64,000 bases of DNA, taken from the NCBI RefSeq assembly GCF_009792795.1, contig NZ_VKHQ01000002.1, forward strand, positions 124,001 through 188,000, read 5' to 3'. Source of the DNA: Cognatiluteimonas profundi. Lineage in GTDB: Bacteria; Pseudomonadota; Gammaproteobacteria; Xanthomonadales; Xanthomonadaceae. The notes under the pieces were generated by a model that saw nothing but the letters and a program-made list of their open reading frames with translations, made no database searches and was not told where the DNA came from. Below are positions 41,553 to 57,348 of this stretch, one piece after another (positions within the stretch are counted from its first letter, which is position 1; each line of letters opens with the position of its first letter). The translations under genes were made by a program, and so were the position numbers.

Positions 41553-42537
41553 GGCTGTCTCCTTCCCGGATGCCTGCGGGCGAGGATACTCCGCCCGCCG
41601 GGTGCCACGTGTCGACGAGGTACAGCGGCCGCTGCTTGGATTCGGTGTACAGGCGACCCAGGTATTCACCGATCAGTCCGAGGGCGATCAGCTGGACACC
41701 GCCAAGGAACAGGATCACCGCCATCATCGATGGCCAGCCGGCGACCGGATCGCCCCACAGCAGCGACCGGACCACGACCCAGACGCCATAGGCGAAGGCA
41801 ACCAACGCCGTGACCACGCCCAGGTAGGTCGCCAGGCGCAGCGGCGCGGTGGTGAAGCTGGTGATGCCCTCGATGGCGAAATTCCACAGCTTCCAGAAGT
41901 TGAACTTGGTCTTCCCCGCCAGGCGCGGCGCGCGCTCGTAGGCGATGGCCACCTGCTCGTAACCGATCCAGCCGAACAGTCCCTTCATGAATCGATGGCG
42001 CTCGCGCAGCTGTCGCAGCGCCGCCAGCGATCGCGGCGAGAGCAGTCGGAAGTCACCCGTGTCCTGCGGGATCGGCGTCTTCGACAGCCGTCCGATCAAC
42101 CGGTAGAAGCCGTGCGCGGTGAATTTCTTCAGCCAGCCTTCGCCTTCACGGACGGTGCGCGTGCCATGGACGTCGTCGAATCCCTCGCGCCATTTGGCGA
42201 CGAACTGCGGGATCAATTCCGGCGGATCCTGGCCGTCAGCATCCAGGACGAGCGCTGCACCGGCTTCGATGCGATCCAGTCCGGCGGTCAGCGCCGCCTC
42301 CTTGCCGAAATTGCGTGACAGGCGCAGCAGCGCGACGCGCGGATCGCGTGCCGCGATGCCCTGCATCACCTGCCAGCTGTCGTCATTGCTGCCATCGTCC
42401 ACGTAGAGCACGCGGCCGTCGACGCGTGCATTCGCGGCAAGATCGTCGAGCACCGCCGACAGCCGCGGCTGCAGCAGCGGGAGGGTCTCGGCCTCGTTGA
42501 ACACGGCGATGACGATCGTCAGCAAGTCTCGGGGCAT
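41512..42537 (-). CDS. Family 2 glycosyltransferase (polyprenyl-phosphate type)
   Basis: 341-residue membrane glycosyltransferase of the DPM1/GtrB/ArnC-like group, which transfers a sugar from a nucleotide donor to undecaprenyl phosphate. The GT-A domain has IVIAVFNEAETLPLL, VDDGSNDDSW and LVLDADGQDPPEL (DxD). Two C-terminal membrane helices lie near 230-252 and 265-287. I place the start at 42537 (MPRDLLTIVIAVFNE). It is downstream of mtgA and overlaps the CBS gene. No GtrA flippase or dedicated acceptor enzyme is adjacent, so the sugar is unknown. Confidence 0.9.
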   Translation of the reverse strand: MPRDLLTIVIAVFNEAETLPLLQPRLSAVLDDLAANARVDGRVLYVDDGSNDDSWQVMQGIAARDPRVALLRLSRNFGKEAALTAGLDRIEAGAALVLDADGQDPPELIPQFVAKWREGFDDVHGTRTVREGEGWLKKFTAHGFYRLIGRLSKTPIPQDTGDFRLLSPRSLAALRQLRERHRFMKGLFGWIGYEQVAIAYERAPRLAGKTKFNFWKLWNFAIEGITSFTTAPLRLATYLGVVTALVAFAYGVWVVVRSLLWGDPVAGWPSMMAVILFLGGVQLIALGLIGEYLGRLYTESKQRPLYLVDTWHPAGGVSSPAGIREGDSHADGPSFARGQGA

Positions 42538-42590
42538 GTCGCGTCCTGGTGCATTGCCGGCAACGCGTGCCGGATCGAGGCTGCGCGTGC

Positions 42591-43382
42591 TCACGGCAGG
42601 TCGCCGCCCGGACCCAGATGGCGCATCTGCCGCTGGATGCCGTTGCTGCGGCGTTGCACGTACGGGCCCGGTCGCCGCGCATCGTAGCGCCTGGGACTCG
42701 GCAGCACGGCGGCAAGCCGTGCGCTCTGCGCAGGCGTCAGGTGGCTGGCATCGACCCGGAAGAAACGCCGCGCCGCCGCCTGCGCACCGTATACGCCATC
42801 GCCGAACTCGGCGATGTTGACGTACATCTCCAGGATGCGGTGCTTGGGCCAGAAGGCCTCGATCAACACCGTGTACCAGACCTCGATACCCTTGCGGACC
42901 CAGCTTCGGCCGCTCCACAGGAAGAGGTTCTTGGCGACCTGCTGGCTGATCGTGCTGGCACCACGCACCTTGTGTCCGCGTGCATTGCTGGCACGCGCCT
43001 TCTCGATCGCCTTGAAGTCGAAGCCGTTGTGGGTCGGAAAATTCTGGTCCTCGGCCGCGACGACCGCCAGGGGCAGGCTCGGTGCGATGGCATCGAGGTC
43101 GCGCCAGTCGTAGGCGAATCCCGAATTCCAGTCGCCCTTCGCCCAGGCCGACAGCTGCCGCTGCACCATGAATGCCGAGAACGGCGGATCGACCACGCGC
43201 AGCACCAGCACCTGCAGCACCGACAGCCCGACGCAGGCGAGCAGGGCCATCAGCACCCAGCGCAGCCAGCGTCGCCGCCGCGAACCGCCGCGCCGCTTCG
43301 TCACGGCTTGCACACGCACCCCTGCGTCCCCATCCATTGTCCCTGCATGCCCGACAGGCATGTCCTCTTCATGACTCGACAT
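42591..43382 (-). CDS. mtgA: Monofunctional peptidoglycan glycosyltransferase
   Basis: Polymerises lipid II into glycan strands without transpeptidase activity. A basic N-terminus and one membrane helix (about 40-62) precede the GT51 domain, with the catalytic Glu in [31 protein letters not shown], and [18 protein letters not shown]. The ATG at 43382 has a GGTGA ribosome site; ATGs at 43361 and 43337 are alternatives. It is divergent from hslO, 37 bases away, and upstream of the glycosyltransferase gene. Confidence 0.94.
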
Positions 43383-43419
43383 GCATTATCACCATGCTGC
43401 GCCCGAGGGACGAAACGCG

Positions 43420-44349
43420 ATGACCCAGGTCCATATCCCCGCAGTCCAGGCCGCGCACGGCCTGATCGACGACGACAGCCTGACACGCTTCCTGTTGCGG
43501 CACGCCGGGGTCCGCGGGGTCCGCGTCCACCTGGATGCCACCTGGCTGCAGATCCGCTCGCGTGCCGAATATCCGATCGCGATATCCGAACTGCTGGGCG
43601 AAGCGTCGGCCGCCTCGGCGCTGTTCACCGCGCATGCCAAGGTCGACGGTCGCCTGTCGGTGCAGCTGCGCGGCGATGGCCCGCTGCGGACGCTGTTCGC
43701 CGAGTGCACCGCGGCGGGAACGCTGCGGGCGATCGCGCAGCTGGATAAGGATGCTGCGCTGCCGCGCGACCTGCGCGTGCTCGGCAACAACGCCGTGCTG
43801 GCGATCACCATCGAGAATCCCGGGGCCGAGGGACGCGAGCCCACCCGCTACCAGGGCATGGTCGCGTTGGAATCCGATTCGCTGGCTGGGGCGTTCGAAG
43901 GCTATTTCCGGCAATCCGAGCAGTTGCCAACGCGGCTGCTGCTCGCGGCCGACGACACCCGCGCGGCCGGGCTGATGCTGCAGAAGCTGCCCGGCGACAG
44001 CGGCGACGACGATGGCTGGAACCGGGCGACGGCGTTGTTCGAGACGCTGTCGTCGCAGGAACTGCTGGATTGGCCGGCCGAACTGCTGCTGCAGCGGCTG
44101 TTCCACGAGGAGGAAGCCCAACTCCTGGATGTCAGGCCGCTGCGGTTTGCCTGTTCCTGCTCACGGGAGCGGGTCGCCTCGATGCTGGACGCACTGGGAC
44201 AGGACGAGGCCCAGGCCGCGGCTGCCGAGGGAGTTGCCCAGATCCGCTGCGAATTCTGTGGCCAGCAGTACCTCTTCGACGCCGATGAGATCGCAGGAAT
44301 CTTCCAGTCCCACCCGCCTGCCCAGCCAGCCCCGGAGCGGCTGCAATAG
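43420..44349 (+). CDS. hslO: Hsp33 redox-regulated chaperone
   Basis: Holdase chaperone switched on by oxidation and unfolding. The 309-residue protein ends with the zinc-binding redox centre: Cys-Ser-Cys in RFACSCSRER and Cys-x-x-Cys in RCEFCGQQY, the full four-cysteine set. The ATG at 43420 is chosen after GAGGGACG; the frame opens 13 codons earlier. It is not part of an evident operon. Confidence 0.95.
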   Translation: MTQVHIPAVQAAHGLIDDDSLTRFLLRHAGVRGVRVHLDATWLQIRSRAEYPIAISELLGEASAASALFTAHAKVDGRLSVQLRGDGPLRTLFAECTAAGTLRAIAQLDKDAALPRDLRVLGNNAVLAITIENPGAEGREPTRYQGMVALESDSLAGAFEGYFRQSEQLPTRLLLAADDTRAAGLMLQKLPGDSGDDDGWNRATALFETLSSQELLDWPAELLLQRLFHEEEAQLLDVRPLRFACSCSRERVASMLDALGQDEAQAAAAEGVAQIRCEFCGQQYLFDADEIAGIFQSHPPAQPAPERLQ

Positions 44350-44370
44350 CTGGACAGGCACTCCCGGCGA

Positions 44371-44399
44371 TTGTTAAATAAACATAAATCCAGTAGATT
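44371..44399 (+). promoter_or_regulatory. Well-formed sigma-70 promoter before the unknown secreted protein
   Basis: TTGTTA (44371-44376), a 17-base spacer, and TAGATT (44394-44399), inside a strikingly AT-rich patch of about 30 bases in otherwise GC-rich DNA. Each hexamer matches four of six consensus bases with ideal spacing. The expected transcript has a leader of about 45 bases before the ATG at 44451. Confidence 0.6.
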
Positions 44400-44450
44400 G
44401 AGGCCTTGATCCAAGGGAACTCGACCAGACACCCACGGTCACACGCAGCC

Positions 44451-45323
44451 ATGTCAGCCCGCCTCCTGCAATTGCCACTCGCCCTGATGCTTGCCCTCGC
44501 CGGCACGTCGGGCGCTGCTGCGCAATCGCTGGGCAACAAGGCGACTGGCACCGTGAGCGACCAGACGATCCTGCCGGTCTGGAACAACGCCAGCGGCAAG
44601 CTTGAGGCGCTGCTGGTCCTCGAGCCCATGGGGGGCGCCCAGGCAGGCACGCGCTGGCGCTTTGGCAACGCGGCGCTGGACACCACTTTCGGGCTTGAAG
44701 CCGGCCACTCGCTCGGGCTGCTCTGCGATCGCAAAAAGGGCCTGGGCGCACTCGGGAGCCTGTCCAACAACTGCATGCTGGCGACGCTGGGAGACGGGCT
44801 GGACGACAACGGCAGCCGGCGCACCAGTGCCAATGCGGCCATCACCCGCAATGGCGGCAAGCTTGGGCTGTCGCTCGGCAGCGGCCACGACACGCTGCCG
44901 GCCTGGCTCACCCCGGGAGCAGCGGGCGGGCGCGTGGATGTCAATGACCTCACCGTCTTCGCCCAGAAAAACCTCAGCCGGCAGGGTTACGTGTCCATCG
45001 CGGGCACCATGGCCAAGGCACGCTTGATCTCACCGTCCGAAGCCCCCGCCCTGGCGGACCGCTGGAGCAGCAAGACCCTCAGCGTGGGCGGCGGATTTGG
45101 CGCCTTCGGGGCCAACATCATCGGCCATGTGGTCGACACCCCCGGCCAGCCGAAATGGGAAGGCCTGGGTCTGGGCCTCACCTGGCGGACCCCTTGGAGC
45201 GGCCAGCTCACCGTGGGCGCGGACAACGTCATCACACGGGGCAAGAACCCCTTCACCCCGGCCAGCGACGGTACGGAAGACGAGGGCACCGTGCCCTACG
45301 TGCGTTACCAGCAGGATCTCTGA
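44451..45323 (+). CDS. Unrecognised secreted, possibly outer-membrane beta-barrel protein
   Basis: 290-residue protein with a textbook signal peptide (cleavage after GTSGAAA, about residue 24). I recognise no family. The mature protein is rich in Gly and alternating hydrophobic/polar segments (for example WEGLGLGLTWRTPWSGQLTV), as in beta-barrels, and has only two cysteines (Cys92, Cys108) that may form a disulfide. It does not end in the C-terminal Phe typical of BAM substrates. It lies behind a good promoter and 161 bases before the TonB-dependent receptor, on the same strand, so the two may be functionally linked. Confidence 0.75.
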   Translation: MSARLLQLPLALMLALAGTSGAAAQSLGNKATGTVSDQTILPVWNNASGKLEALLVLEPMGGAQAGTRWRFGNAALDTTFGLEAGHSLGLLCDRKKGLGALGSLSNNCMLATLGDGLDDNGSRRTSANAAITRNGGKLGLSLGSGHDTLPAWLTPGAAGGRVDVNDLTVFAQKNLSRQGYVSIAGTMAKARLISPSEAPALADRWSSKTLSVGGGFGAFGANIIGHVVDTPGQPKWEGLGLGLTWRTPWSGQLTVGADNVITRGKNPFTPASDGTEDEGTVPYVRYQQDL

Positions 45324-45384
45324 GACCTGCGTTCCCGGCGGCTTTCAGCCCGCCACTTAACGACACTTTAATTTTTGGCCAAGG

Positions 45385-45402
45385 GGGGCTACTATCGGCC
45401 CC
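45385..45402 (+). promoter_or_regulatory. -10 box in GC stem upstream of TonB-dependent receptor
   Basis: TACTAT (45390-45395) is flanked by GGGGC (45385-45389) and GCCCC (45398-45402). A TTTAAT at 45367-45372 gives a 17-base spacer but is a poor -35. The leader to the ATG at 45485 would be about 85 bases. Confidence 0.4.
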
Positions 45403-45484
45403 GGCCTTGCCGGCATTGGCGTCTTTCTTGACTCCACCGGGGAGGTTCCCATGGGAAATACCCAAGAACGACTTGGAGAGAGAG

Positions 45485-48367
45485 ATGACCTTGAAGACCA
45501 CAAAGCTCCGCGACGCGATCACCTTCGCGCTCGCCGTGGGCGCTACCGCCGTCGCCGGCACGGGCGTTGCATTCGCCCAGGACACCACGACGACGACCAC
45601 CACCACGACGACCGCCCCGGCCGAACAGCAAGCCACGACCCTCGATCGCATCGAAGTCACTGGTTCGCGCATTCGCCGTGTCGACGCTGAAAACGCCAGC
45701 CCCGTCGTCACCATCGATCGCGCCGCGATCGAGAAGACCGGCAAGCTGACCCTCGGCGACCTGATCCAGGAACTGCCGAACATGGCCGGCGCGCCGACCA
45801 ACCCGCAGGTCAACAACGGCGGTGGTACCGGTGCCTCGACGATCGATCTGCGCGGCATGGGCTCGGCCCGCACGCTGACCCTGATCGACGGCCACCGCAT
45901 CATCAACGGCGACGTCAACGCCATCCCGGCCTCGGCCGTGGAGCGCATCGAAGTCCTGACCGTCGGCGCCTCGTCGGTGTACGGCTCGGACGCCATCGCG
46001 GGCGTCGTCAACTTCATCATGCGCAAGGACTTCCAGGGCATGGAAGCGTCGCTCAACTACGGCCTTTCCAGCCGTGGCGATGGCGAGCGCACCGGTGGAT
46101 CGGTGACCTTTGGCCAGACCGGCGAAAAGGGCAACGTCATCGCCGGCATCGACTACAACAAGTTCAAGGCGATCTCCGCCGCGGACCGTGACTTCTCCAA
46201 GGATGCGACCTACCTGTACTACGGTTCGTCGTTCGTCGCCGGCTCCAGCCGCAATCCCTTCGGCCGCATCTTCCTGCCGTCAGGCGATCCGGTGCGGACC
46301 GCGCTGGGCTGCTCCAGCGTCACCCGCATCGCCGGTGCGCCGGGCAACAGCACCGCCGACTACCGCTGCTACAGCGGCGCGACCGATGCGTACAACTACC
46401 AGCGCACCAACCTGATCCTGACCCCGCAGGAGCGCACCAATGCGTTCTTCCTGGGCAACTATCAGATCACCGACGACGTCAGCGCCTACCTGCAGGTCTA
46501 TCACAACAAGACCTCGTCCGGTTTCGCCATCGCGGCACTGCCGTTCGACGCCAACTCCGACGGCGTGCTGATTTCCAAGGACAATTACTACAACCCCTTC
46601 GGCATCGACTTCGGCGCCGGCACCAACCAGTTCATGACCCGCTTCACCTCGCTGGGTCAGCGCATGTCGTTCAACGCGACCACGACCGACCAGGTGTTCG
46701 CTGGCGTCACCGGCTTCCTGGGTGACACCTGGAAGTGGGACTTCGGCGTCAACTACGGCCACGTCACGCAGGACAGCGAGACCCACGGCTACGTGTATTA
46801 CGAAGGCCTGCGTGCGGCCCTCGGCCCGTCGTTCCTCGACCCGGCCACCAACACCGTGACCTGCGGCACCGCGACTGCGCCGATCGCCAACTGCACCCCG
46901 TTGAACATCTTCAACATCAACGACCCGCAGACCATCGCGACCCTGCAGCAGTACGCAGTGAACCCGATGTACCGCCTGATGAACGACCAGAAGGGCTTCG
47001 AGGCCAATGCCTCCGGCGAACTGTTCAACCTGCCGGCCGGTGCCGTGCAGCTGGCGTTCGGTGGTGCATGGCATCGTGACTACCTGCGCACCACGGTCGA
47101 CTACGTCGCAGTGGCTGGCGCCGATGGCACCTGCTTCATCTCGCAGGAAGCCTGCGGTTCGGCCCTGTCCGGCAGCTTCAGCGTCGGTGAGCTCTACGGC
47201 GAAATGTTCGTTCCGATCCTGAAGGACGTGCCGTTCGCCAAGGCCCTGAACGTGACCTTCGGTTCGCGCTTCTCGAACTACAGCGACTTCGGCAACACCG
47301 TCAACAACAAGCTGCAGGTCGAATGGCGTCCGTTCAACGACCTGCTGGTGCGTGGCACCGTTGCCGACGTGTTCCGGGCACCGACCATCAGTGACCTGTA
47401 CGCCGGCCCGCAGGGCAACGCTCCACAGGCGCAGGATCCATGCGCGGGTTACACCAATGATCCGGCCCATGCCGGCGCATGCGGCGCGGGCACTGGCGCC
47501 ACCGCGATCGATCCGGTCAACGGCATTGGCCCACAGGCCAACTCGCAGCTGACGGGCGTCATCTCCGGCGCGCGTTACGCCGGCTACCAGCTCAAGCCCG
47601 AGCAGGGTCGTTCGTACGACTGGGGCATGGTGTATGACCCGAGCTGGCTGTCGGGTGCGTCGATGAGCCTGGATTACTGGCGTCTGACGCTGGGCGACAA
47701 CATCAGCACGATCGGTGCACAGACCGTTCTGACGCAGTGCTACAACGACAACAACAGCCCGTACTGCCCGTTCATCCATCGCTTCGCCAATGGTGACGTG
47801 TCGTACATCTCGCAGCCGACGGTCAACCTCGGCCGCCTGGACGCGACTGGCTGGGATCTGGCACTGCGCTACAAGATGCCGTCCACCGCGTTCGGTTCGT
47901 TCAACTTCGGCTTCGATGGCACCTACATCGCGAAGTGGGACAACGACGTCGACACCACCACCAATGCTGATCCGATCGTGCACCTGGCCGGCAACTACAA
48001 CAAGGACTACGGCATGTACTCGCGTGTCCGTGGTCGCCTGTTCGCCGACTGGAGCCTGGGTGACTGGTCCGCCAGCTGGCGTACCCGTTACATCGGCGCG
48101 TTCGATATCCCGAGCGGCGATGGTGCCTGCGCTTACACCGGCAATTTCTGCGACCCGCTGTCCTACAGCAGCTACGTGACCCATGCCCTCCAGGTGGGTT
48201 ATGCACTGCCGTCGATCAACTCGCGCCTGGAAGTCGGCGTGGACAACGTGTTCGACAAGCAGCCGCCGGTGCTGTACCAGAACAACGTGCTCAACGCCAA
48301 CACGGACGTGAACACGTTTGACACGATCGGCCGCTACTACTGGGCTCGTTACACCGTCAAGTTCTGA
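45485..48367 (+). CDS. TonB-dependent outer-membrane receptor
   Basis: 960-residue TonB-dependent receptor/transporter, starting after a GGAGAG ribosome site. Signal peptide to about residue 31, an unusual run of ten threonines right after the cleavage site, a TonB-box-like LDRIEVTGSRI (about 51-61), a plug domain (about 70-180: GDLIQELPNM, SSVYGSDAIAGVVNF) and a 22-strand barrel ending in the BAM signature YTVKF. It has no FecA-type signalling extension. Specificity is unknown; related xanthomonad receptors import glycans, peptides or metal chelates. A strong terminator follows, then a sulfotransferase gene. Confidence 0.92.
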   Translation: MTLKTTKLRDAITFALAVGATAVAGTGVAFAQDTTTTTTTTTTAPAEQQATTLDRIEVTGSRIRRVDAENASPVVTIDRAAIEKTGKLTLGDLIQELPNMAGAPTNPQVNNGGGTGASTIDLRGMGSARTLTLIDGHRIINGDVNAIPASAVERIEVLTVGASSVYGSDAIAGVVNFIMRKDFQGMEASLNYGLSSRGDGERTGGSVTFGQTGEKGNVIAGIDYNKFKAISAADRDFSKDATYLYYGSSFVAGSSRNPFGRIFLPSGDPVRTALGCSSVTRIAGAPGNSTADYRCYSGATDAYNYQRTNLILTPQERTNAFFLGNYQITDDVSAYLQVYHNKTSSGFAIAALPFDANSDGVLISKDNYYNPFGIDFGAGTNQFMTRFTSLGQRMSFNATTTDQVFAGVTGFLGDTWKWDFGVNYGHVTQDSETHGYVYYEGLRAALGPSFLDPATNTVTCGTATAPIANCTPLNIFNINDPQTIATLQQYAVNPMYRLMNDQKGFEANASGELFNLPAGAVQLAFGGAWHRDYLRTTVDYVAVAGADGTCFISQEACGSALSGSFSVGELYGEMFVPILKDVPFAKALNVTFGSRFSNYSDFGNTVNNKLQVEWRPFNDLLVRGTVADVFRAPTISDLYAGPQGNAPQAQDPCAGYTNDPAHAGACGAGTGATAIDPVNGIGPQANSQLTGVISGARYAGYQLKPEQGRSYDWGMVYDPSWLSGASMSLDYWRLTLGDNISTIGAQTVLTQCYNDNNSPYCPFIHRFANGDVSYISQPTVNLGRLDATGWDLALRYKMPSTAFGSFNFGFDGTYIAKWDNDVDTTTNADPIVHLAGNYNKDYGMYSRVRGRLFADWSLGDWSASWRTRYIGAFDIPSGDGACAYTGNFCDPLSYSSYVTHALQVGYALPSINSRLEVGVDNVFDKQPPVLYQNNVLNANTDVNTFDTIGRYYWARYTVKF

Positions 48368-48392
48368 TCCAACTGTAGATTGCTAGACTTGG

Positions 48393-48427
48393 GGGCCGCG
48401 CGGCATGCCGCGCGGCCCTTTTTCTTT
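48393..48427 (+). terminator. Rho-independent terminator after the TonB-dependent receptor
   Basis: A perfect 26-base palindrome (48393-48418) folds into an 11-bp GC stem with a CATG loop and is followed at once by TTTTT, C, TTT. It is the clearest intrinsic terminator in the window. It ends ten bases before the sulfotransferase ATG, so that gene needs read-through or its own start signal. Confidence 0.85.
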
Positions 48428-48436
48428 GGGACCCCG

Positions 48437-50278
48437 ATGAGCCAGCTTCTCTTCAACGCAGCCGTCGCCGAATTCGAGGCCGGTCGATTCGAGTCCAGTG
48501 CCCGCCTGAGCAGGTCGGCACTGGAGTCGAATCCCGGAAATGAAAACGTCCTGACGCTGCTCGCCATCTCGTTGCAGGCCATCGGTCAATTCGCGGGCGC
48601 CGCGGATGCATTCGCGGCGCTGGCGCAGGCGAGGCCGGATGTCGGCGAATATCGGGCCAACCGCGGCGTGATGCTGCGGCATCTCAAGCGATACGACGAG
48701 GCGGAGGCGGAGTTCAAGCAGGCGTTGACGTTGCCGCATGCCGTCGATGGGACCCTGATCAATTACGGATTGCTGCTGCTGGACATGGGTCGCGTGGCCG
48801 AAGCCAGGCATTGCTTCCTGGATGCCTGCGAGCTGGGCGACCTGCCCGAAGCCCGCATCTACGCCGCCCTGGCCTGCATCGACTGCGGCGATACGCGTCG
48901 CGCGCAATCGCTGATCCCACCACATGCCTGGTGGCCGGCGCTTGATCCGTCGCTGCGACGCGACCTGACCAAGGCCCTCATCCAGCTGGGCCAGGTTGAG
49001 GATGCGGAGAACCTGCTGACAGCCGACGCGCGAACCGGCGATCCACTCGCTATCCTTCGCCTGGCCACATTGCATGAACGCACCAACCGGATCGACAGCG
49101 CCCGCTCGCTGCTCGAGCAGGTGCGGACCGAGGTCGCGACAGACGCGGAGATGGAGGCGGAATTCCTCAGCCTTGATTCCGCGCTGGCCTTGCGGGCGAA
49201 GGACTACGACCGAGCGCGCCGATCCACCCGCGCCCTGCTGCAGCTATCGGGGTTGCCGCCCGCGGCCAAGGCCAATGCCCACTTCGTCATGGCGAAGGTG
49301 GCCGACAAGCAGGGAGCCGTCGACGAGGCCATGGCCGAGCTCGCGCAGGCCCATGCCATCCAGTTCGCACTGGCCTCGGCCAGCCTGCCCGAGGTCGCCG
49401 AATCGCCGGACGAACCACTGCGCATTGCCTCCAGATGGATGACGCCGGAGCAGACGGTCTTTGCCGTCTCCCCCAACGCTCCATCCAGGGCCGAGTCGCC
49501 CGTTTTCATCGTCGGATTCCCAAGATCGGGCACGACCATGCTCGAACAGATGCTGGACGCGCATCCCGCGTTCGTCTCCATGGATGAGCGGATCATCATC
49601 CAGTACTGCGTCGAGTGCATGGAATCGAAAGGCCTGACCTATCCCCATGAACTCGACCGTCTGTCCGATGCCGACCTGGCGGAATTGCGCGAGCTCTACT
49701 GGGCTGAATCCAGCAAGGTCGCCGACATCGCGCCGGGCAGCACGCTGGTCGACAAGAATCCCCTGAACCTGTTGCGGCTGCCGATGATCCGCCGGCTCTT
49801 CCCCGACGCCCGCGTCATCCTGGCGTTGCGCCATCCCTGCGATGTCATCCTGAGTTGCTACATGCAGAACTTCCGCTCACCGGCCTTCATGGTGCTGTGC
49901 TCGACGCTGGAGCGGCTGGCGAAGAGCTACGTGAACGCCATGCGCTTCTGGATCCACCACCAGCCACTGCTGTGCCCCGATGCCCTGCTGCTGCGCTATG
50001 AGGAGACCGTGTCGGACTTCGCCAGCCAGGTGGATGTCATCGCCGATTACCTCGGGATCGCCGACCGCGCGCCGCTGTCCGATTTCGCCGCGCACGCCGC
50101 GGGAAAGAAATACATCAGCACTCCCAGCTACGCGCAGGTGATCGAGCCGGTGAACGCGCGCGCGGTCGCGCGCTGGCAGCCTTACCGGGCGTATTTCGAA
50201 CCCCTGTTCCCGCTGCTGGAACCGATCGCCAGCCATTGGGGATACGCCCTGGACGGAGGCGAGCCATGCACGCGCTGA
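48437..50278 (+). CDS. TPR-containing sulfotransferase
   Basis: 613-residue cytoplasmic protein without signal peptide: tetratricopeptide-like helices (about residues 1-310), then a PAPS-dependent sulfotransferase domain (about 350-600). The 5'-phosphosulfate loop is FPRSGTTMLEQML (361-373), and the 3'-phosphate loop is LALRHPCDVILSCY (near 460). TPR-sulfotransferases act on proteins, peptides or small molecules in different systems; the substrate here is unknown. The 2OG dioxygenase gene overlaps its end by 13 bases, so the two enzymes are made together. Confidence 0.88.
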   Translation: MSQLLFNAAVAEFEAGRFESSARLSRSALESNPGNENVLTLLAISLQAIGQFAGAADAFAALAQARPDVGEYRANRGVMLRHLKRYDEAEAEFKQALTLPHAVDGTLINYGLLLLDMGRVAEARHCFLDACELGDLPEARIYAALACIDCGDTRRAQSLIPPHAWWPALDPSLRRDLTKALIQLGQVEDAENLLTADARTGDPLAILRLATLHERTNRIDSARSLLEQVRTEVATDAEMEAEFLSLDSALALRAKDYDRARRSTRALLQLSGLPPAAKANAHFVMAKVADKQGAVDEAMAELAQAHAIQFALASASLPEVAESPDEPLRIASRWMTPEQTVFAVSPNAPSRAESPVFIVGFPRSGTTMLEQMLDAHPAFVSMDERIIIQYCVECMESKGLTYPHELDRLSDADLAELRELYWAESSKVADIAPGSTLVDKNPLNLLRLPMIRRLFPDARVILALRHPCDVILSCYMQNFRSPAFMVLCSTLERLAKSYVNAMRFWIHHQPLLCPDALLLRYEETVSDFASQVDVIADYLGIADRAPLSDFAAHAAGKKYISTPSYAQVIEPVNARAVARWQPYRAYFEPLFPLLEPIASHWGYALDGGEPCTR

Positions 50279-50823
50279 AGGACTACATCCGGGTTTACGA
50301 CAATGCCCTGGAGGACGGCTTCTGCGCCAACCTCGTTGCCGGTTTCGAACAGATGACCGAACTGCAGCGGCGCAACGGGCGTGGCATCCGCCCCGGTCTC
50401 GACAACAGCGCCTGGACCGAAATGAACATCGGCACGCAGGCCGACAAGGCATTCCTGGGATTCTTTTTGGCCCAGGTCGACACCTACCTTGCCCGCTACA
50501 ACAGCGAGGTTCCGCTGACCATTCCGGTTCCGCTGCGACCAAAGACGGACCGGCTGACACTCAAGCGCTACCACCCGCAGGTGGAAGGCTTCGAACCGCA
50601 TTTCGATTCGATCGACGACTACAGCAGCCGATACATGGTCTTCCTCTGGTACCTGAACACCGTCGAGGAAGGTGGCGAGACGGAGTTCTGCGACCTCGGC
50701 ATCAAGGTCGCTCCGAAGGCGGGCCGGCTGCTGATGTTCCCGCCGTACTGGATGTTCCAGCATGCCGGGCGGCCGCCGATCAGCGGCGACAAGTACATCC
50801 TGTCGACCTATCTGATGTTCTGA
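50266..50823 (+). CDS. 2OG-Fe(II) dioxygenase, prolyl-4-hydroxylase-like
   Basis: 185-residue iron/2-oxoglutarate oxygenase with no signal peptide. The facial triad is His112-x-Asp114 (EPHFDSID) and His166 (WMFQHAGRP), and Lys176 (SGDKYIL) sits where prolyl 4-hydroxylases bind 2-oxoglutarate. The set is complete, so activity is expected, probably hydroxylation of a peptide or protein side chain. It overlaps the sulfotransferase gene and converges, 22 bases away, with a second 2OG-dependent hydroxylase gene. Confidence 0.85.
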   Translation: MHALKDYIRVYDNALEDGFCANLVAGFEQMTELQRRNGRGIRPGLDNSAWTEMNIGTQADKAFLGFFLAQVDTYLARYNSEVPLTIPVPLRPKTDRLTLKRYHPQVEGFEPHFDSIDDYSSRYMVFLWYLNTVEEGGETEFCDLGIKVAPKAGRLLMFPPYWMFQHAGRPPISGDKYILSTYLMF

Positions 50824-50845
50824 AGCGCCGCCGGCTGCCGGGGGA

Positions 50846-52120
50846 TCAGCTGATCCCGGCGCCCAGGTTGAATTCGCCGATCTTCTCCACCAGGTCGCGG
50901 AGCGCGATGCGCTCGGGCTCGGTGGTGTCCGGGTTCCACGTGTCCACGACCAGCACGACCCGCTGCTGGCTGCTGCGATTCCACGCTTCATGCAAAAGCG
51001 TGTCGTCGAAGGTGACGCACCGACCCTCCTGCCACGCACGCGCCTCGCCACCGACGACGAGCCTGCAGTCACCTTGCGGCACGATCAGCGGCAGGTGCGT
51101 GACCACGCGGGTGTTGGTGATCCCGTGACGCGGCTTGACGTGGGTGCCGGGCGCCAACACGGAGAACATCACCTCGGGCGCGTGGTTTGCGATCTGCCTG
51201 AGTGGAACGCCAGCGAGTGCGGCTGCGGTCCTTGGACAGGCTGCAAGATGTTCCGCGAAGTCCTTGCCGCGCCGATGGAAGGAATAGGCATCGCCTGCCC
51301 CGGCCCCGGGATCGCTTTCAGGACCTGCCGTGTCGCCGCCGGAGCCGAGCAACGGCGCCACGTTGGAAAACTCGTCACGGATGTCGGCTGTCGCGGCTTC
51401 GAGTGCGTCGTACCAGTCGAACCGCTCGCGCGGATAGAAGGGTGTCGGTGGCAGTGCTGGCATCCACAGGAACGAGGGCCGCTGGCGCGGATCGGGATTG
51501 ACCGGTGCATGGGTCTGCAGGTACACGCCCAGCGCGGCGGCGACACGTTGCATGCCGGTCGCGCCGAATGCCGCGATATGTGGCTGGAGTACCGCCTCGA
51601 ACAGCGACTGCCGGCCCTGGTCGATCATCGCCATGGCCCGCTTGACGCGCTCGCGCATGGGCGGCGGCGTGGACGCGTCATCCAGCCAACCCCCTTGCGC
51701 CTGGGCATCGTGCACTGCACGAAAGGCCTGCTGCACGGCATCGGTCCGATTGCCCTGGTGCTGGAGGCACTCGGAATACATGAGCCGGAGCGCAGACTCT
51801 TGCGGATGCTGGGCCAGCGCCCGGCGGAAACTCTCGATCGCGGATGCGGGATCGCCGGCAGCGACCTGGCAGATCGCCAGCCCGGAGGTGATCGCGTAGG
51901 GAGCGTCGGCTGCGCGTGCCGCGACCGACAACACGTCGACCGCCGCCTGCGGCTTTCCATTCGCCAGCAACGTCGCGCCATGCAATGCGACGAACTCCGG
52001 GTTTCCCGGATCACTGTCGAGCAATGCGGTGCTGTCGCTCAGCGCACGCGCGAGGTTGCCGGCGGACAGGGAATTCTCGACATCCTGGCGTGAGGGCAGA
52101 CCGGACACCGGGCCGGTCAT
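50846..52120 (-). CDS. TPR/aspartyl-asparaginyl beta-hydroxylase-like protein
   Basis: 424-residue protein: N-terminal TPR-like helices (about 12-140) and a C-terminal aspartyl/asparaginyl beta-hydroxylase domain (about 225-400). Fe ligands are His332 in KPRHGITNTR and His377 in LLHEAWN, and Arg387 likely holds 2-oxoglutarate. This mirrors the helical-repeat-plus-catalytic layout of animal ASPH. No signal peptide is seen. Its ATG overlaps the pckG stop by four bases (ATGA), so it is translated in coupling with a gluconeogenic gene. Confidence 0.87.
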   Translation of the reverse strand: MTGPVSGLPSRQDVENSLSAGNLARALSDSTALLDSDPGNPEFVALHGATLLANGKPQAAVDVLSVAARAADAPYAITSGLAICQVAAGDPASAIESFRRALAQHPQESALRLMYSECLQHQGNRTDAVQQAFRAVHDAQAQGGWLDDASTPPPMRERVKRAMAMIDQGRQSLFEAVLQPHIAAFGATGMQRVAAALGVYLQTHAPVNPDPRQRPSFLWMPALPPTPFYPRERFDWYDALEAATADIRDEFSNVAPLLGSGGDTAGPESDPGAGAGDAYSFHRRGKDFAEHLAACPRTAAALAGVPLRQIANHAPEVMFSVLAPGTHVKPRHGITNTRVVTHLPLIVPQGDCRLVVGGEARAWQEGRCVTFDDTLLHEAWNRSSQQRVVLVVDTWNPDTTEPERIALRDLVEKIGEFNLGAGIS

Positions 52121-53943
52121 GCCGTCGTCCGTGCAAGTGCGACGGCGATGCGCTGCTGCTCGCTTCGCAATGCGGCGGGCATGCGCGGACCGTATTCGTC
52201 CAGGTAGCTGCCGATGCCGTCGAGCTCGGCCAACCAGGCCTGTCGATCGAAACCGAACAGCTTGTCGCGCGCCTCGGCGGTCAGCGGCACGCCGTCGAGG
52301 TTGACGTCCTCCACTCGCGGCAGCGCACCGATCGGCGTGTCGACCGCGCCGGCCCTGCCTTCGACGCGCTTGATCATCCACTCGAGCACGCGCAGGTTGT
52401 CGCCAAATCCGGGCCACAGGAATTTGCCGTCATCACCCTTGCGGAACCAGTTGACGTGGAAGATCTTCGGCAGCCTTGCGCCTTCGCTGTCGAAGGACAG
52501 CCAGTGCGCGAAGTAGTCGGCGAAGTTGTAGCCGCAGAATGGCTTCATCGCCATCGGATCGCGACGCATCACGCCGACGGCACCGGTTGCCGCAGCGGTG
52601 GTTTCCGAACCCATCGCCGCGCCGACCAGCACGCCATGCGCCCAGTCGCGGGCCTCGAACACCAGCGGCACCAGCGATGCCCTGCGGCCGCCGAACACGA
52701 TCGCCGAGATCGGCACGCCGGCCGGATTCTCCGCTTCGGCCGAGTAACTGGGGCATTGCCGGGCTGAAACCGTGAATCGCGAGTTTGGATGCGCCGCCGG
52801 ACCGGCATTGCAATCGTATGCATTTCCACGCCAGTCAAAAGCGGGTTCGCCGACACCCAATCCCTCCCACCACGGCTGGTTGTCGGCCGTCAGTCCGACG
52901 TTGGTGAAGATGGTGTCGCGCTGGATGGAAGCCAACGCGTTGGGATTGGACGCCATGCTCGTGCCCGGCGCGACGCCGAAGAAACCAGCTTCCGGGTTGA
53001 TCGCGTACAGGCGGCCATCGCTGCCCGGGCGCATCCAGCAGATATCGTCGCCGACGGTCCACACCTTCCAGCCGTCCTGGCGGTAACCCTCGGGCGGGAT
53101 CAGCATCGCCAGGTTGGTCTTGCCGCAGGCACTGGGGAATGCGGCGGCGATGTAATGCGTCTCGCCCTCGGGATTTTCCAGGCCCAGGATCAGCATGTGT
53201 TCGGCAAGCCAGCCTTCCGTCCGCGCCTGGTGCGATGCGATGCGCAGGGCATGGCACTTCTTGCCGAGCAGCGCATTGCCACCGTAGCCCGATCCGAAGG
53301 ACTTGATGGTGAGTTCTTCGGGGAAATGCATGATGAAGCGGCGATCCGGGTCGAGCTCACCGACCGAATGCAGTCCGCGCACGAAGCTCCCCTCGCGCTC
53401 GATCCGCGCCAGCGCCGCCGCGCCCATGCGCGTCATGATGCGCATGTTGGCGACGACGTATGGCGAATCGGTGATCTCGACGCCGCAACGCGACAGCGGC
53501 GAATCGATCGGTCCCATGCAGTACGGGATGACATACATCGTGCGGCCGCGCATGCAGCCGTCGAACAACCCGTCCATGCGCGCATGGCCGTCGGCCGGCG
53601 CCATCCAGTGGTTGTTGGGACCGGCATCGTCGCGCTCGCTGGTGCAGACGAAGGTCAGGTGCTCCACGCGCGCGACGTCTTCCGGATGCGAGCGATGCAG
53701 CCAGCTGCGCGGATGCGTGTCCGGGTTCAACGGCAGCAACGTGCCGTCGGCTTCCATGCGCTCGACGAGCGCCTCGAATTCGCTGTCGCTGCCGTCGCAC
53801 CACTGGATGCGCTCAGGCCGGGTCAGGCGCGCGACTTCCAGCACCCACTGGTTCAGGGCATCCAGCCGGCTGCCTGCCGACTCGGGGGCGACAGCCATGC
53901 CGGGGTGGACGCGTTCCTGGCCGGATGCGCTTTTGCGATCCAT
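52117..53943 (-). CDS. pckG: GTP-dependent phosphoenolpyruvate carboxykinase
   Basis: Converts oxaloacetate and GTP to PEP in gluconeogenesis. The 608 residues (start at 53943; a GTG at 53973 with AGAGAG nearby is an alternative) carry the substrate-binding FGSGYGGNALLGKKC, the kinase loop FPSACGKTNLAM with its reactive Cys, and GFGDNLRVLEWM. It fits the PTS cluster and serine/glycerate enzymes as part of three-carbon metabolism. The next gene, a hydroxylase, is coupled to it. Confidence 0.95.
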   Translation of the reverse strand: MDRKSASGQERVHPGMAVAPESAGSRLDALNQWVLEVARLTRPERIQWCDGSDSEFEALVERMEADGTLLPLNPDTHPRSWLHRSHPEDVARVEHLTFVCTSERDDAGPNNHWMAPADGHARMDGLFDGCMRGRTMYVIPYCMGPIDSPLSRCGVEITDSPYVVANMRIMTRMGAAALARIEREGSFVRGLHSVGELDPDRRFIMHFPEELTIKSFGSGYGGNALLGKKCHALRIASHQARTEGWLAEHMLILGLENPEGETHYIAAAFPSACGKTNLAMLIPPEGYRQDGWKVWTVGDDICWMRPGSDGRLYAINPEAGFFGVAPGTSMASNPNALASIQRDTIFTNVGLTADNQPWWEGLGVGEPAFDWRGNAYDCNAGPAAHPNSRFTVSARQCPSYSAEAENPAGVPISAIVFGGRRASLVPLVFEARDWAHGVLVGAAMGSETTAAATGAVGVMRRDPMAMKPFCGYNFADYFAHWLSFDSEGARLPKIFHVNWFRKGDDGKFLWPGFGDNLRVLEWMIKRVEGRAGAVDTPIGALPRVEDVNLDGVPLTAEARDKLFGFDRQAWLAELDGIGSYLDEYGPRMPAALRSEQQRIAVALARTTA

Positions 53944-54007
53944 GCTCGAGTTTGCTTCGTTCAAGACAATCACCTCTCTGACTTCAATTCGATTGGCTTC
54001 CCGCGCC

Positions 54008-54610
54008 TCACGGTGCCGGGATCAGCGTCGCCATCACGTGTTCGACGTAAGCCTCGAACTCATCGTGCTGCAGGCGCGGCTGGTGCAGCTGCAGGTTCAA
54101 CTGCAGGAAACCGACATAGGCGGCGTAGGCCAGGCGGGCCCGATGCTGGGCATCCGCCCGTCCCATCCCGGCCTGGCGCAGGGACGCGGTGAGGTAGTCC
54201 AGGCGGCGGCCCGAGACGCGCTCGATGACCGGCTTGACCGTCGGATGATCGAGCGCCTTCAGCAGCTCGCTATAGATGGTGTGCAACTTGACCTGGTGCG
54301 CGACCACCAGGAACAGCGCGCGCAATCGCTCGCGTGGGTCGGGCACCGCTTCGACCGAGCCGAACACGGTTTCCTGCTCGACCTGTTCCCAACGCTCCAG
54401 CGCCGCTTGCAGCAAGGCATCGCGCGATGGGAAATGCCAGTAGAAGCTGCCCTTGGTCACGCCAAGGCGGCGGGCCAGCGGTTCGACGGCAACAGCGGCG
54501 ACGCCTTGCTCGGCGATCACGTCCAGCGCTGCCTGCGCCCAGTCTTCCGCACTCAGGCGACCGCTGCGCTCGGCGACCCTGGTCACTGCACCTGTGCTCG
54601 CCGATACCAT
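54008..54610 (-). CDS. TetR family transcriptional regulator
   Basis: 200-residue repressor-type regulator. The N-terminal helix-turn-helix (about 38-62: EPLARRLGVTKGSFYWHF) is canonical. The C-terminal ligand domain is unclassified. The start at 54610 is chosen over an upstream in-frame extension. It is divergent from fadE, and a palindrome overlaps the fadE -10 box; by analogy with other TetR regulators of fatty-acid genes the ligand may be an acyl-CoA, which is inference. Confidence 0.88.
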   Translation of the reverse strand: MVSASTGAVTRVAERSGRLSAEDWAQAALDVIAEQGVAAVAVEPLARRLGVTKGSFYWHFPSRDALLQAALERWEQVEQETVFGSVEAVPDPRERLRALFLVVAHQVKLHTIYSELLKALDHPTVKPVIERVSGRRLDYLTASLRQAGMGRADAQHRARLAYAAYVGFLQLNLQLHQPRLQHDEFEAYVEHVMATLIPAP

Positions 54611-54624
54611 GTGAACAGTGTATC

Positions 54625-54650
54625 CATACGCCAGCGTCCCGAACAGTATG
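54625..54650. promoter_or_regulatory. Second CATAC/GTATG pair near the tetR start
   Basis: CATAC (54625-54629) and GTATG (54646-54650) are the same half-sites as in the main operator, but 16 rather than 6 bases apart, a difference of one helical turn. Located 15-40 bases upstream of the tetR ATG, it could allow autoregulation. Confidence 0.3.
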
Positions 54651-54666
54651 TATGCGCCGACTGTGG

Positions 54667-54696
54667 TTGACAGCCTCGCGAAGTGAATTCCATACT
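54667..54696 (+). promoter_or_regulatory. fadE promoter with consensus -35
   Basis: A perfect TTGACA (54667-54672), an 18-base spacer and CATACT (54691-54696). This is the best -35 box in the window and points toward fadE. Confidence 0.6.
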
Positions 54697-54707
54697 TGTC
54701 CGTATGG
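54690..54707. promoter_or_regulatory. Palindromic TetR operator candidate over the fadE -10
   Basis: CCATAC (54690-54695) and GTATGG (54702-54707) form a perfect inverted repeat with a six-base spacer, covering the -10 hexamer. TetR/AcrR-family operators commonly use this kind of CATAC-N-GTATG design, so bound regulator would block RNA polymerase. Confidence 0.6.
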
Positions 54708-54773
54708 TGGTGACGCAAGCCCGCCATGGCCAGCTAACCTGTCCACCACGGCCGCATTGCGCTGGAGCGAACG

Positions 54774-57269
54774 ATGAGCGTGTTACTGCCTTTCCTTGCC
54801 GTGTTGTTCGCCGGCGCATTCGCCGCTTACCACCGCTATCGGCTCACCACCTGGGTGGCGATCGTCGCCGTCCTGCTGCTTGCCTGCTGGCTGGGCGGCG
54901 CAAGCCATGTCGCCACCGGCATCGCGGCGCTGCTGGTGCTGCTGGTCGCCGTTCCGCTGCTGGTTCCCGGATTCCGCAAGCAGCGCATCACCGCGCCTTT
55001 ACTCACCTTCTACACAAGGATCCTGCCGCCGCTGTCGGACACCGAACGCACGGCGATCGAGGCCGGAACGGTCGGTTTCGAGGGCCAGCTGTTTTCGGGC
55101 AGGCCCGACTGGAACCAGCTGCTGTCGCAGCCCGCGCCCGTGCTCACCGCCGCCGAGCAGGCCTTCCTCGACGGGCCGTGCGAAACGCTGTGCCGGATGA
55201 GCGACGACTGGGACATCAGCCACGTGCGCGCCGACCTGCCGCCCGAGATCTGGGACTACCTGAAGCACAACAAGTTCTTCGGGCTGAACATCCCCGCGCA
55301 GTACGGCGGCCTGGGTTTCAGCGCACTGATGAACCACAAGGTCATCCAGAAGCTGTCGTCGATCTCGTCCACCGTCAGCACGACGGTCGGCGTGCCCAAT
55401 TCTCTGGGGCCGGCCGAACTGCTGATGCATTACGGCACCGATGAGCAGAAGCAGTACTACCTGCCGCGCTTGGCGGACGGACGCGAGGTGCCGTGCTTCG
55501 CCCTGACCGGCCCCTTCGCCGGTTCCGACGCGACCTCGATCCCGGACTACGGCATCGTCGCGATGGGCGAATGGAACGGCGCGCAGGTGCTCGGCATCCG
55601 GCTGACGATGGACAAGCGCTACATCACGCTCGCCCCGGTCGCGACGCTGATCGGTGTCGCCTTCCGCATGTACGACCCCGACGGCCTGCTTGGCGACAAG
55701 AAGGACATCGGCATCTCGCTGGCACTGGTGCCGCGCGAGACGCCTGGACTGGACATCGGCCGTCGGCATTTCCCGCTCAACAATCCCTTCCAGAACGGTC
55801 CGATCCGCGGCGATGGCGTGTTCGTGCCGCTGTCGCAGCTGATCGGTGGCGAGGACTACGCCGGCCGCGGCTGGCAGATGCTGATGGAGTGCCTGTCGAT
55901 CGGGCGGTCGATCACCCTGCCCTCCATCGCCAGCGGCGGCGCCAAGATGAGCGCCTGCGTGACCGGTGCCTATGCGCGCATCCGAAAGCAGTTCGGTTTG
56001 TCGGTGGGGCGCTTCGAGGGCGTGGAGGAAGGCCTCGCGCGCATTGCCGGCAAGGCCTATGCGATCAGCGCGTTGGCCCAGGCCACGGCCGCCGCCGTCT
56101 CGCGCGGTGAAAACCCGGCGGTCCCGTCGACCATCGCCAAGTACCACTGCACCGAGATGGGTCGGGAAGTCATCCGCGATGCCATGGATATCCATGGCGG
56201 CAAGGGCATCATCCTCGGCCCGCGCAATTACCTGGGTCGCGCGTGGCAGGCGCTGCCGATCAGCATCACGGTCGAAGGCGCGAACATCATGACGCGCAGC
56301 CTGATGATCTTCGGCCAGGGCGCGATCCTCTGCCATCCCTGGGTGATGAAGGAGATGAAGGCGGCCGCACTGACCGACCCGCGGGAGCGCATCGATGCGT
56401 TCGACAGCAGCCTGTTCGGCCACATCGGCTCGGCCATCTCCAATGCCGTGCGCGCTTTCTGGTTCGGCCTGACCTCCTCGCGGTTCGGCCGCGCCCCGGG
56501 CGACGATTACACCCGCCGCTTCTATCGCAAGCTCAACCGTTACTCGGCGGTGCTGGCGGTGATGGCCGATACCTCCATGCTGCTGCTGGGCGGCAAGCTG
56601 AAGTTCAAGGAGTCGCTCTCCGGCCGCCTGGGCGACGTGCTCAGCAACCTCTACATCGCCAGCGCCATGCTCAAGCGTTACGAGGACGAAGGTCGCCCGG
56701 TCGGGGACCAGCCATTGCTCGCGTGGGCCTTCCACGATGCCGTACACAAGATGGAACTGTCCCTGTCGGGTGCCTTGCGGAATTTCCCCATTCGTCCGGT
56801 CGGCTGGTTGCTGTGGCTGCTGGTGTTCCCACTGGGGCGTCGCGCGACGCCGCCCAGCGATCGCCTGGGCCATCGCGCGGCGTCGTTGCTGATGGCGCCG
56901 TGCGACGCCCGGTCACGACTCGCGCAAGGTGTGTTCCTCACGCCCTGCGACAACAATCCGGCTGGTCGCATCGACAGTTACCTGCCCAAGGTCATCCTTG
57001 CCGAGCCCGTGGAGCGCAAGTTCCTCAAGGCACTCAAGAACAGCGACATCGAGGCGCTGGACTTCCCCGCGCAACTGGACGAAGGCGTTCGCGAAGGCTG
57101 GATCACCGCGGCCGAACGCGCGCAACTGGAGGAGTTGCGGACGATGACGCTGGACGCGATCACCGTCGACGATTTCGAACCATGGGAATTGCGGGCGGCG
57201 TCCTACTACGTTGATTTTTCCGACGACGCCAAAGCGCAGTCCGACAGCAGCAATCGTGCTGCGGCCTGA
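54774..57269 (+). CDS. fadE: Acyl-CoA dehydrogenase (FadE type)
   Basis: 831-residue membrane-associated acyl-CoA dehydrogenase catalysing the first step of fatty-acid beta-oxidation; E. coli FadE is of similar length. Two N-terminal hydrophobic segments (residues 3-20 and 26-65) precede the flavoprotein core, with FALTGPFAGSD near 242, the mid-domain, and GGKGIILGPRNYLGRAW near 470; a C-terminal DUF1974-like region completes it. A GGAG ribosome site precedes the ATG. The divergent TetR gene and the operator over its promoter suggest control by fatty-acid availability. Confidence 0.94.
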   Translation: MSVLLPFLAVLFAGAFAAYHRYRLTTWVAIVAVLLLACWLGGASHVATGIAALLVLLVAVPLLVPGFRKQRITAPLLTFYTRILPPLSDTERTAIEAGTVGFEGQLFSGRPDWNQLLSQPAPVLTAAEQAFLDGPCETLCRMSDDWDISHVRADLPPEIWDYLKHNKFFGLNIPAQYGGLGFSALMNHKVIQKLSSISSTVSTTVGVPNSLGPAELLMHYGTDEQKQYYLPRLADGREVPCFALTGPFAGSDATSIPDYGIVAMGEWNGAQVLGIRLTMDKRYITLAPVATLIGVAFRMYDPDGLLGDKKDIGISLALVPRETPGLDIGRRHFPLNNPFQNGPIRGDGVFVPLSQLIGGEDYAGRGWQMLMECLSIGRSITLPSIASGGAKMSACVTGAYARIRKQFGLSVGRFEGVEEGLARIAGKAYAISALAQATAAAVSRGENPAVPSTIAKYHCTEMGREVIRDAMDIHGGKGIILGPRNYLGRAWQALPISITVEGANIMTRSLMIFGQGAILCHPWVMKEMKAAALTDPRERIDAFDSSLFGHIGSAISNAVRAFWFGLTSSRFGRAPGDDYTRRFYRKLNRYSAVLAVMADTSMLLLGGKLKFKESLSGRLGDVLSNLYIASAMLKRYEDEGRPVGDQPLLAWAFHDAVHKMELSLSGALRNFPIRPVGWLLWLLVFPLGRRATPPSDRLGHRAASLLMAPCDARSRLAQGVFLTPCDNNPAGRIDSYLPKVILAEPVERKFLKALKNSDIEALDFPAQLDEGVREGWITAAERAQLEELRTMTLDAITVDDFEPWELRAASYYVDFSDDAKAQSDSSNRAAA

Positions 57270-57307
57270 TCCGGGCAGGACCGGCCGCGGCTGAAGTCGC
57301 TGTCGCG

Positions 57308-57334
57308 CGCATGGCGGCATTGCGCCGCCATGCG
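57308..57334. terminator. Perfect 11-bp hairpin between convergent fadE and DUF4097 genes
   Basis: CGCATGGCGGC (57308-57318) pairs exactly with GCCGCCATGCG (57324-57334) around a five-base loop, in the 79-base gap between convergent stops. No T-run follows on either strand, so it may stop transcription with Rho or protect 3' ends rather than be a classical terminator. Confidence 0.4.
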
Positions 57335-57348
57335 AACCCGTCGGAACC

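Follow-up and report, generated by a model that had tools for sequence, protein, structure and literature searches.

The 64,000-nucleotide stretch of the Cognatiluteimonas profundi genome analyzed here (contig NZ_VKHQ01000002.1, positions 124,001 to 188,000; hereafter the window) encodes, at 45485-52120, a conserved cassette in which a TonB-dependent receptor (TBDR) is linked to a sulfotransferase and two hydroxylases. The cassette is real, and no published description of such a system, or of TPR-sulfotransferases in general, was found in the titles, abstract beginnings and passages searched, which covered few subscription journals. Four genes were recognized from their open reading frames (ORFs) and Pfam domains: the TBDR (960 aa; 45485-48367, forward strand; PF07715 and PF00593), a TPR-sulfotransferase (613 aa; 48437-50278, forward; PF13469 at E 2e-31, with TPR), a prolyl-4-hydroxylase-like (P4H-like) Fe(II)/2-oxoglutarate (2OG) dioxygenase (185 aa; 50266-50823, forward; PF13640 at E 3e-11) and, convergent with it, a TPR-ASPH-like dioxygenase (424 aa; 50846-52120, reverse; PF05118 at E 3e-38, with TPR). 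The P4H-like ORF overlapped the sulfotransferase ORF by 13 bases, and 22 bases separated its stop from the ASPH gene. This gene set had been claimed in an earlier note on the DNA, made without database searches, and the ORFs and domains bore it out; the conservation is stronger than that note claimed, and the substrate candidates it named are weaker. The host genome is 2.71 Mb in size and 99.98% complete. We consider it possible, at somewhat less than an even chance, that the enzymes modify the co-encoded TBDR in the cytoplasm before export.

Conservation of the Cassette as a Unit

Of 149 genomes of the family, 18, including the host, encoded a full-length orthologue of the P4H-like protein (52% identity or more), four of them in two copies. 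All 21 close P4H copies fetched from the family genomes adjoined a TBDR and a TPR-sulfotransferase, and 13 of these 21 also had the ASPH gene; the distant P4H homologue at L064 (36% identity) was without cassette neighbours. A wider set with one genome per species (84,980 species) gave 79 named loci from the best 80 of 122 matching stretches. They belonged to Lysobacteraceae, Rhodanobacteraceae, Steroidobacteraceae, Hydrocarboniphaga and unclassified metagenome-assembled genomes (MAGs), with one contig labelled Edaphobacter (L104), which is only 5.6 kb long and may be mis-binned. In a class-wide sample, P4H matches at E 1e-30 occurred in 3 of 369 genomes, again including the host.

Linkage was counted in those loci of the combined set whose P4H gene had 8 kb or more of sequence on each side, after six known duplicates, the distant L064 and L065 (not a P4H locus) had been dropped. 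The counts rest on profile searches, with thresholds of more than 300 bits for the TBDR and the TPR-sulfotransferase and more than 60 bits for ASPH; the gene calls missed weak genes and gave the wrong strand in L047, L048, L052 and L063. Both the TBDR and the TPR-sulfotransferase lay within 8 kb of the P4H gene in 55 of the 62 loci, window included (54 of 61 once the residual duplicate L053/L097 was removed), and ASPH did so in 39 of the 62. The earlier note had proposed comparing neighbourhoods across Xanthomonadales and held that a lack of co-occurrence would speak against its idea; the co-occurrence was clear, and sulfation and 2OG-hydroxylation genes beside a receptor are conserved as a linked set in Xanthomonadales and in the Steroidobacter/Hydrocarboniphaga group. 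Even in two genomes without the P4H gene (G085 and G009), a cassette-type TPR-sulfotransferase adjoined a cassette-type TBDR. The three core genes were found in five orders or orientations; the linkage is therefore not one frozen synteny block.

The cassette genes also diverged together. Across the 18 loci sharing the Hsp33-XOO1806 slot, the distances of the TBDR, the TPR-sulfotransferase and the P4H-like protein correlated closely (rho 0.81-0.91). In the same loci the distances of the flanking XOO1806 protein correlated with those of Hsp33 at 0.88 and with those of the cassette genes at 0.28-0.30, and Hsp33 correlated with the TBDR at 0.40; these weak flank correlations were not nil, being reached in 0, 6 and 4 of 500 permutations. 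Co-divergence within the cassette, weak with the flank, suggests that the cassette has for the most part been inherited and exchanged as one piece, separately from the flanking genes. Mobility on plasmids was considered and rejected, with plasmid records giving only distant P4H relatives (26-33% identity, 5 records).

Predicted Activities of the Three Enzymes

The TPR-sulfotransferase matched PF13469 with 110 bits against a cut-off of 27, which places it in that family, and its PRSGTT loop, which we take to be the loop binding 3'-phosphoadenosine 5'-phosphosulfate (PAPS), was invariant across 29 homologues. The structural model (pLDDT 92.5) showed a TPR superhelix followed by a PAPS sulfotransferase domain with the fold of tyrosylprotein sulfotransferases (TPSTs); in structure comparison the TPR arms resembled those of OGT. 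The best structural matches of the catalytic domain were human and tick TPSTs (Z 22.7-21.9, with human TPST1 at 22.7; identity in the structural alignment 21-23%), and the next kind of sulfotransferase by fold was that of curacin (Z 18.7). Of 415 PDB sequences matching its profile 60 were displayed, and tyrosylprotein sulfotransferases were the only sulfotransferases among these 60. The Glu that follows the HP motif in TPSTs, presumably a catalytic residue, falls within the alignment. By profile and by modelled catalytic fold, TPST1/2 are thus the nearest solved sulfotransferases, and tyrosine sulfation is predicted. TPSTs differ in being Golgi membrane proteins without TPR arms. PAPS supply in the host is plausible because an adenosine 5'-phosphosulfate (APS) kinase gene is present.

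In the P4H-like protein, residues H112, D114, H166 and K176 (HxD, distal H, K), presumably the 2OG-Fe(II) active-site motif of prolyl-4-hydroxylases, were invariant in 22 homologues. Its best PDB profile match was a bacterial prolyl-4-hydroxylase, at E 8e-10 only; proline is a putative target. The TPR-ASPH protein combines PF05118, the ASPH His/Arg pattern and an N-terminal TPR region, and it matched human ASPH at E 2e-22 over the catalytic domain, with the His/Arg positions to which we ascribe roles in the active site aligned; Asp/Asn hydroxylation is predicted. The statement of the earlier note that all three enzymes keep their cofactor-binding residues accordingly stands, the motifs being invariant or aligned in homologues. 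No hydrophobic N-terminus was seen in any of the three on inspection by eye, made without a signal-peptide program.

Relatives of these enzymes (TPST, prolyl hydroxylase, ASPH) act on proteins. Likeness of predicted folds to protein-modifying enzymes does not prove a substrate.

A Hydroxylase-Sulfotransferase Fusion and Enlarged Cassettes

Hydroxylation and sulfation are joined more closely still in the Steroidobacter/Hydrocarboniphaga group, where a PF05118-PF13469 fusion protein sits directly beside the cassette ASPH in 12 loci. Pfam was run on the copy at L138:6838-8769; besides L138, the fusion occurs in L108 (where the copy is further off), L109, L117, L126-L129, L132, L139, L141, L142 and L146. 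Since the fusion adjoins the cassette ASPH, both reactions, hydroxylation and sulfation, are probably directed at the same substrate. Among 250 genomes of the order, nine further full-length fusion matches were found in seven genomes, and the two halves lay close together in 17 genomes, the host among them.

The host itself has adjacent ASPH-like and sulfotransferase genes on another contig (C14:70.5-72.4 kb; L066:8496-10321), a split form of the fusion. Neither a receptor nor a TPR-sulfotransferase adjoins this pair, and the next gene looks, by eye, like inorganic pyrophosphatase.

Some cassettes are enlarged. Methyltransferases joined 8 of 95 loci and were apparently fused to ASPH in L058-L061, and the MAG locus L114 had a TPR-PF13759 dioxygenase. 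Loci of Rudaea, Rhodanobacter and Dyella held further sulfotransferases (PF00685 in the L078 copy); the Rudaea-type loci L078, L085, L086, L091 and L095 are cassettes to which several sulfotransferases, from two or more families, have been added.

The Receptor and Its Clade

The AlphaFold model of the TBDR (pLDDT 83) has, by our own reading of its secondary structure, 22 strands and 11 outer loops, and its closest solved folds are PirA, PfeA, FepA, BtuB and Cir. Its signal peptide was judged by eye. The cassette TBDRs formed one clade (SH-aLRT 99) in a quick tree of 106 receptors that has several long branches and in which part of the listed orphans were placed. Ten orphan TBDRs fell inside this clade, and two events are needed to explain them; one of these falls in G037, a genome that carries the cassette at another place. 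The loci L213-L215, L217-L221 and L224 form a conserved orphan clade, in which a cassette-type receptor stands without adjoining enzymes, and offer a natural control.

Between the receptor gene and the enzyme genes lies a terminator-like hairpin (48391-48420, forward strand; 13 pairs plus a T run), which the earlier note had missed. The scan that listed it gave 5 sites as a whole against 4.8 in shuffled sequences. In eight hand-picked loci of several genera with the same gene order, 6 of 12 pairs were changed on both sides and 95.8% of the alignment cells paired, a pattern indicating that the hairpin is kept through compensatory changes in these eight. The hairpin may keep the enzymes at a much lower expression level than the receptor. 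Such an excess of receptor is what one would expect if the enzymes modify it, and other models would fit it too.

The Substrate

That the enzymes modify their own receptor is the reading that we tentatively prefer. Apart from the receptor, every member of the conserved unit is an enzyme, and these enzymes, which appear to lack signal peptides, would encounter the receptor before its export. The receptor would be produced in bulk, with the conserved hairpin passing only part of the transcription to the enzyme genes. The TPR-sulfotransferase, with PAPS as donor, the P4H-like enzyme and TPR-ASPH would work in the cytoplasm, where the TPR arms would hold the protein chain. Hydroxyl groups would be installed, and the chain would receive O-sulfate on tyrosine, on the newly made hydroxyls or on both. 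Modification of the unfolded precursor before Sec export would thus yield outer loops carrying sulfate and hydroxyl groups, which might adjust ligand binding or shield the receptor against phages and bacteriocins.

Several observations weigh against this reading, for which the evidence is indirect. First, conserved residues and loop tyrosines hardly set the orphan receptors apart. In the nine-member orphan clade, the 156 columns conserved to at least 93% across 76 cassette TBDRs showed no loss of Tyr, Pro, Asn, Ser or Thr, and among plausible target residues D355 alone was lost. Loop tyrosines numbered 19.0 per protein in cassette TBDRs and 20.4 in orphans, with no separation; 12 other slot receptors had 12.4, below both. 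The attempt to single out the receptor as substrate by residue contrast thus found no support: modification at fixed Tyr, Pro or Asn sites should have left its mark on the conserved columns of the orphans, and loop composition did not separate cassette from orphan TBDRs. Second, seven of the 62 loci are exceptions. In five, an ASPH-P4H pair stands with neither a receptor of the cassette type nor a TPR-sulfotransferase; a distant receptor lies 8 kb off in one of them, L122, and four share a genome or MAG with a listed locus that has both genes (L134/L101, L122/L106, L143/L112 and L115/L107). In the other two, L099 and L105, the TPR-sulfotransferase is present and the receptor is lacking. Third, pairs of ASPH and sulfotransferase also occur with no receptor noticed beside them, the host pair at L066 among them, so the pairing is not tied to receptors. 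Fourth, of seven loci with a PKMT methyltransferase (described below) over the cut-off, our own profiles found a TPR-sulfotransferase and a receptor beside it in only one, the six others having neither. Finally, lipids or small molecules can be substrates of enzymes with these folds, and the ASPH protein matches the models of the lipid hydroxylases OlsC (E 3e-19) and LpxO (E 3e-14), far below their cut-offs.

The last point bears on an improbable alternative, that the enzymes modify a non-protein envelope molecule such as lipid A, ornithine lipid or a polysaccharide, with the receptor merely co-expressed. PF05118 includes OlsC and LpxO, many bacterial sulfotransferases act on carbohydrates, and a family-2 glycosyltransferase is encoded in the core flank (41512-42537). 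However, the NCBIfam equivalog cut-offs for OlsC and LpxO were not reached by ASPH (69 bits vs. 450 and 53 vs. 500), whereas the match to human ASPH spans the catalytic domain, and the sulfotransferase and ASPH carry TPR arms. The glycosyltransferase belongs to the Hsp33 flank and not to cassettes elsewhere, and one specific receptor clade would not be expected if the receptor were only a companion.

The main competitor, which we still judge unlikely, holds that the enzymes modify a peptide or small protein which the receptor binds as its ligand, whether self-made, encoded elsewhere or imported, as in pathways for ribosomally synthesized and post-translationally modified peptides (RiPPs) with a dedicated TBDR. 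TPST-like and P4H-like folds suit peptides, and the receptor has many conserved columns in its outer loops, as would be expected if its ligand were fixed. ASPH and sulfotransferase may also sit in a RiPP-like set: a Pontixanthobacter table gives lasso-peptide B2, sulfotransferase, aspartyl beta-hydroxylase, sulfotransferase and PqqD proteins with cluster numbers that run almost consecutively, the table not stating gene adjacency (PMC10040529). That set shares both enzyme classes with the cassette and, as tabulated, adds B2, PqqD and an asparagine-synthase-like protein, none of which was seen beside the window cassette (PMC10040529). No lasso, PqqD, ABC-export or inner-membrane transporter gene was found at 41124-58284, and the same interval held none of the lasso/PqqD-type RiPP genes (precursor, B1/B2, C); neighbours at other loci were mostly not domain-scanned. 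Nor did 2484 small ORFs from 95 loci include a convincing conserved one inside the cassettes. The 12 largest clusters appeared, by position and by eye though not one by one, to be antisense or out-of-frame shadows of neighbouring genes, which gave no support for a small precursor peptide. No conserved small ORF like RaxX was found in the cassettes, a search that a fast-changing peptide could escape.

The secreted protein encoded just upstream of the receptor (44451-45323, forward strand) had been called unrecognised in the earlier note and proposed as a substrate. Neither held: NCBIfam names it as a member of the XOO1806 family (NF052276, E 4e-119), a name that assigns no function, and 127 of the 149 genomes mentioned above have a member, regardless of whether they carry the cassette. 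It is a near-universal core gene of the Hsp33 flank and was not found at cassettes located elsewhere in the genomes; it is therefore an unlikely substrate, and we rejected it. The good promoter that had been placed upstream of it also failed to appear, since a scan of 44300-52300 for sigma-70 consensus sites listed none, with an average of 1.2 in shuffled sequences.

An Exchange Site for Receptor Modules

In the window the cassette occupies a variable slot between conserved neighbours, which lie outside the system. Upstream are Hsp33 and the XOO1806-family gene, at the edge of the slot; beyond ASPH follow PEP (phosphoenolpyruvate) carboxykinase (GTP) at the other edge (52117-53973, reverse strand; PF00821/PF17297), a TetR regulator and an acyl-CoA dehydrogenase. 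The start of the ASPH gene overlaps the stop of the carboxykinase gene by 4 bases, so ASPH expression in the window may be driven by the latter. The carboxykinase keeps its place in congeners with different slot content.

Across the family, TonB-dependent and Oar-like receptors are exchanged at this hot spot, often together with TPR-sulfotransferases and sometimes with ASPH or PKMT genes; where the cassette is missing, another receptor nearly always takes its place. In cassette-free congeners it holds Oar-like receptors (PF25183, with a carboxypeptidase-regulatory domain just below the cut-off) together with one or two other TPR-sulfotransferases, and in three Xanthomonas-type genomes a TBDR and no such enzyme. 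The slot of congener G108 contains another TBDR, two TPR-sulfotransferases and a PKMT homologue; the latter (L229:6403-8007) matches PKMT1 (5dnk) at E 4e-70 and lies between the two TPR-sulfotransferases beside the TBDR. Twenty further slots were hand-picked, one per genus label. Our own profiles found a receptor in 18 of the 19 that were long enough to judge (L285 was cut) and a TPR-sulfotransferase in 10, two of these being about 13 kb from the XOO1806 gene; L291 had neither.

The variability of the slot from XOO1806 to PEP carboxykinase/TetR invites the explanation that unrelated accessory genes have gathered at an integration hot spot. This is hardly credible and already contradicted: the same genes recur outside the slot and in five core orders, they co-diverge, a natural ASPH-sulfotransferase fusion exists, and the receptors belong to one clade.

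Six genomes examined carry two to six TPR-sulfotransferases each, and 13 of these 22 lay within 3 kb of a receptor, compared with 0 of 12 other PF13469 loci (Fisher p 5e-4); the 12 are those fetched of 24 remaining rows, and phylogenetically the loci are not independent of one another. In the host, both of the TPR-sulfotransferases that were found adjoin receptors. The second forms a pair with a TBDR on the same strand, about 73 bases apart (L065:5363-9899; C12:55-60 kb), and this pair is conserved in three relatives (L237-L239). G037 likewise has a diverged receptor with an adjoining TPR-sulfotransferase (L241). In these two cases, as in the Oar-like and G108 modules, the partner is a receptor of another kind than that of the cassette, which we count in favour of the receptor reading.

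A bolder form of the receptor reading would take in all such modules. The bacteria would sulfate and hydroxylate their own TBDRs in the cytoplasm by a relay in which each hydroxyl set by a hydroxylase is capped by a sulfotransferase, giving acidic loops that resist phages or bacteriocins or are tuned to a ligand, and the slot from XOO1806 to PEP carboxykinase would be the exchange site for modules of sulfation, hydroxylation and methylation. We regard this as rather doubtful. A parallel can be drawn with chemokine receptors, which are tuned by tyrosine sulfation.

Relation to Known Systems and Significance

Within Xanthomonadales a comparable known case is, as we understand it, RaxST/RaxX of Xanthomonas, in which a PAPS sulfotransferase sulfates tyrosine. 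By description, the cassette differs from it in its TPR arms, dioxygenases and receptor and in the absence of a RaxX-like small ORF from our search. PiuA/PiuC resembles the cassette in placing a PF13640-type dioxygenase beside a siderophore-type TBDR; to our knowledge, and by description only, PiuC-type systems include no TPR-sulfotransferase or ASPH. We also know of very few bacterial proteins that are substrates of sulfation.

As precedent for modified outer-membrane proteins we take the methyltransferases PKMT1/2 of rickettsiae and KmtA of Acinetobacter, which, like the proposed cassette, stand for bacterial modification of such proteins. According to the sections available, members of this family methylate outer-membrane proteins (OmpB, AtaA), with no clear consensus motif (PMC11784438). 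A PKMT homologue lies in the sister module of receptor and TPR-sulfotransferases, in the same slot of congener G108. PKMT and KmtA are single enzymes that methylate autotransporters, whereas the cassette is a multi-enzyme set with predicted sulfation and hydroxylation and a TBDR.

A cassette tied to one receptor clade would make post-translational modification of the outer membrane directly testable. If the receptor is indeed the substrate, the TPR-sulfotransferases would gain a role, and TBDRs may be diversified without sequence change, which would bear on nutrient uptake, on sensitivity to phages and bacteriocins, and on the routes by which drugs enter through TBDRs.

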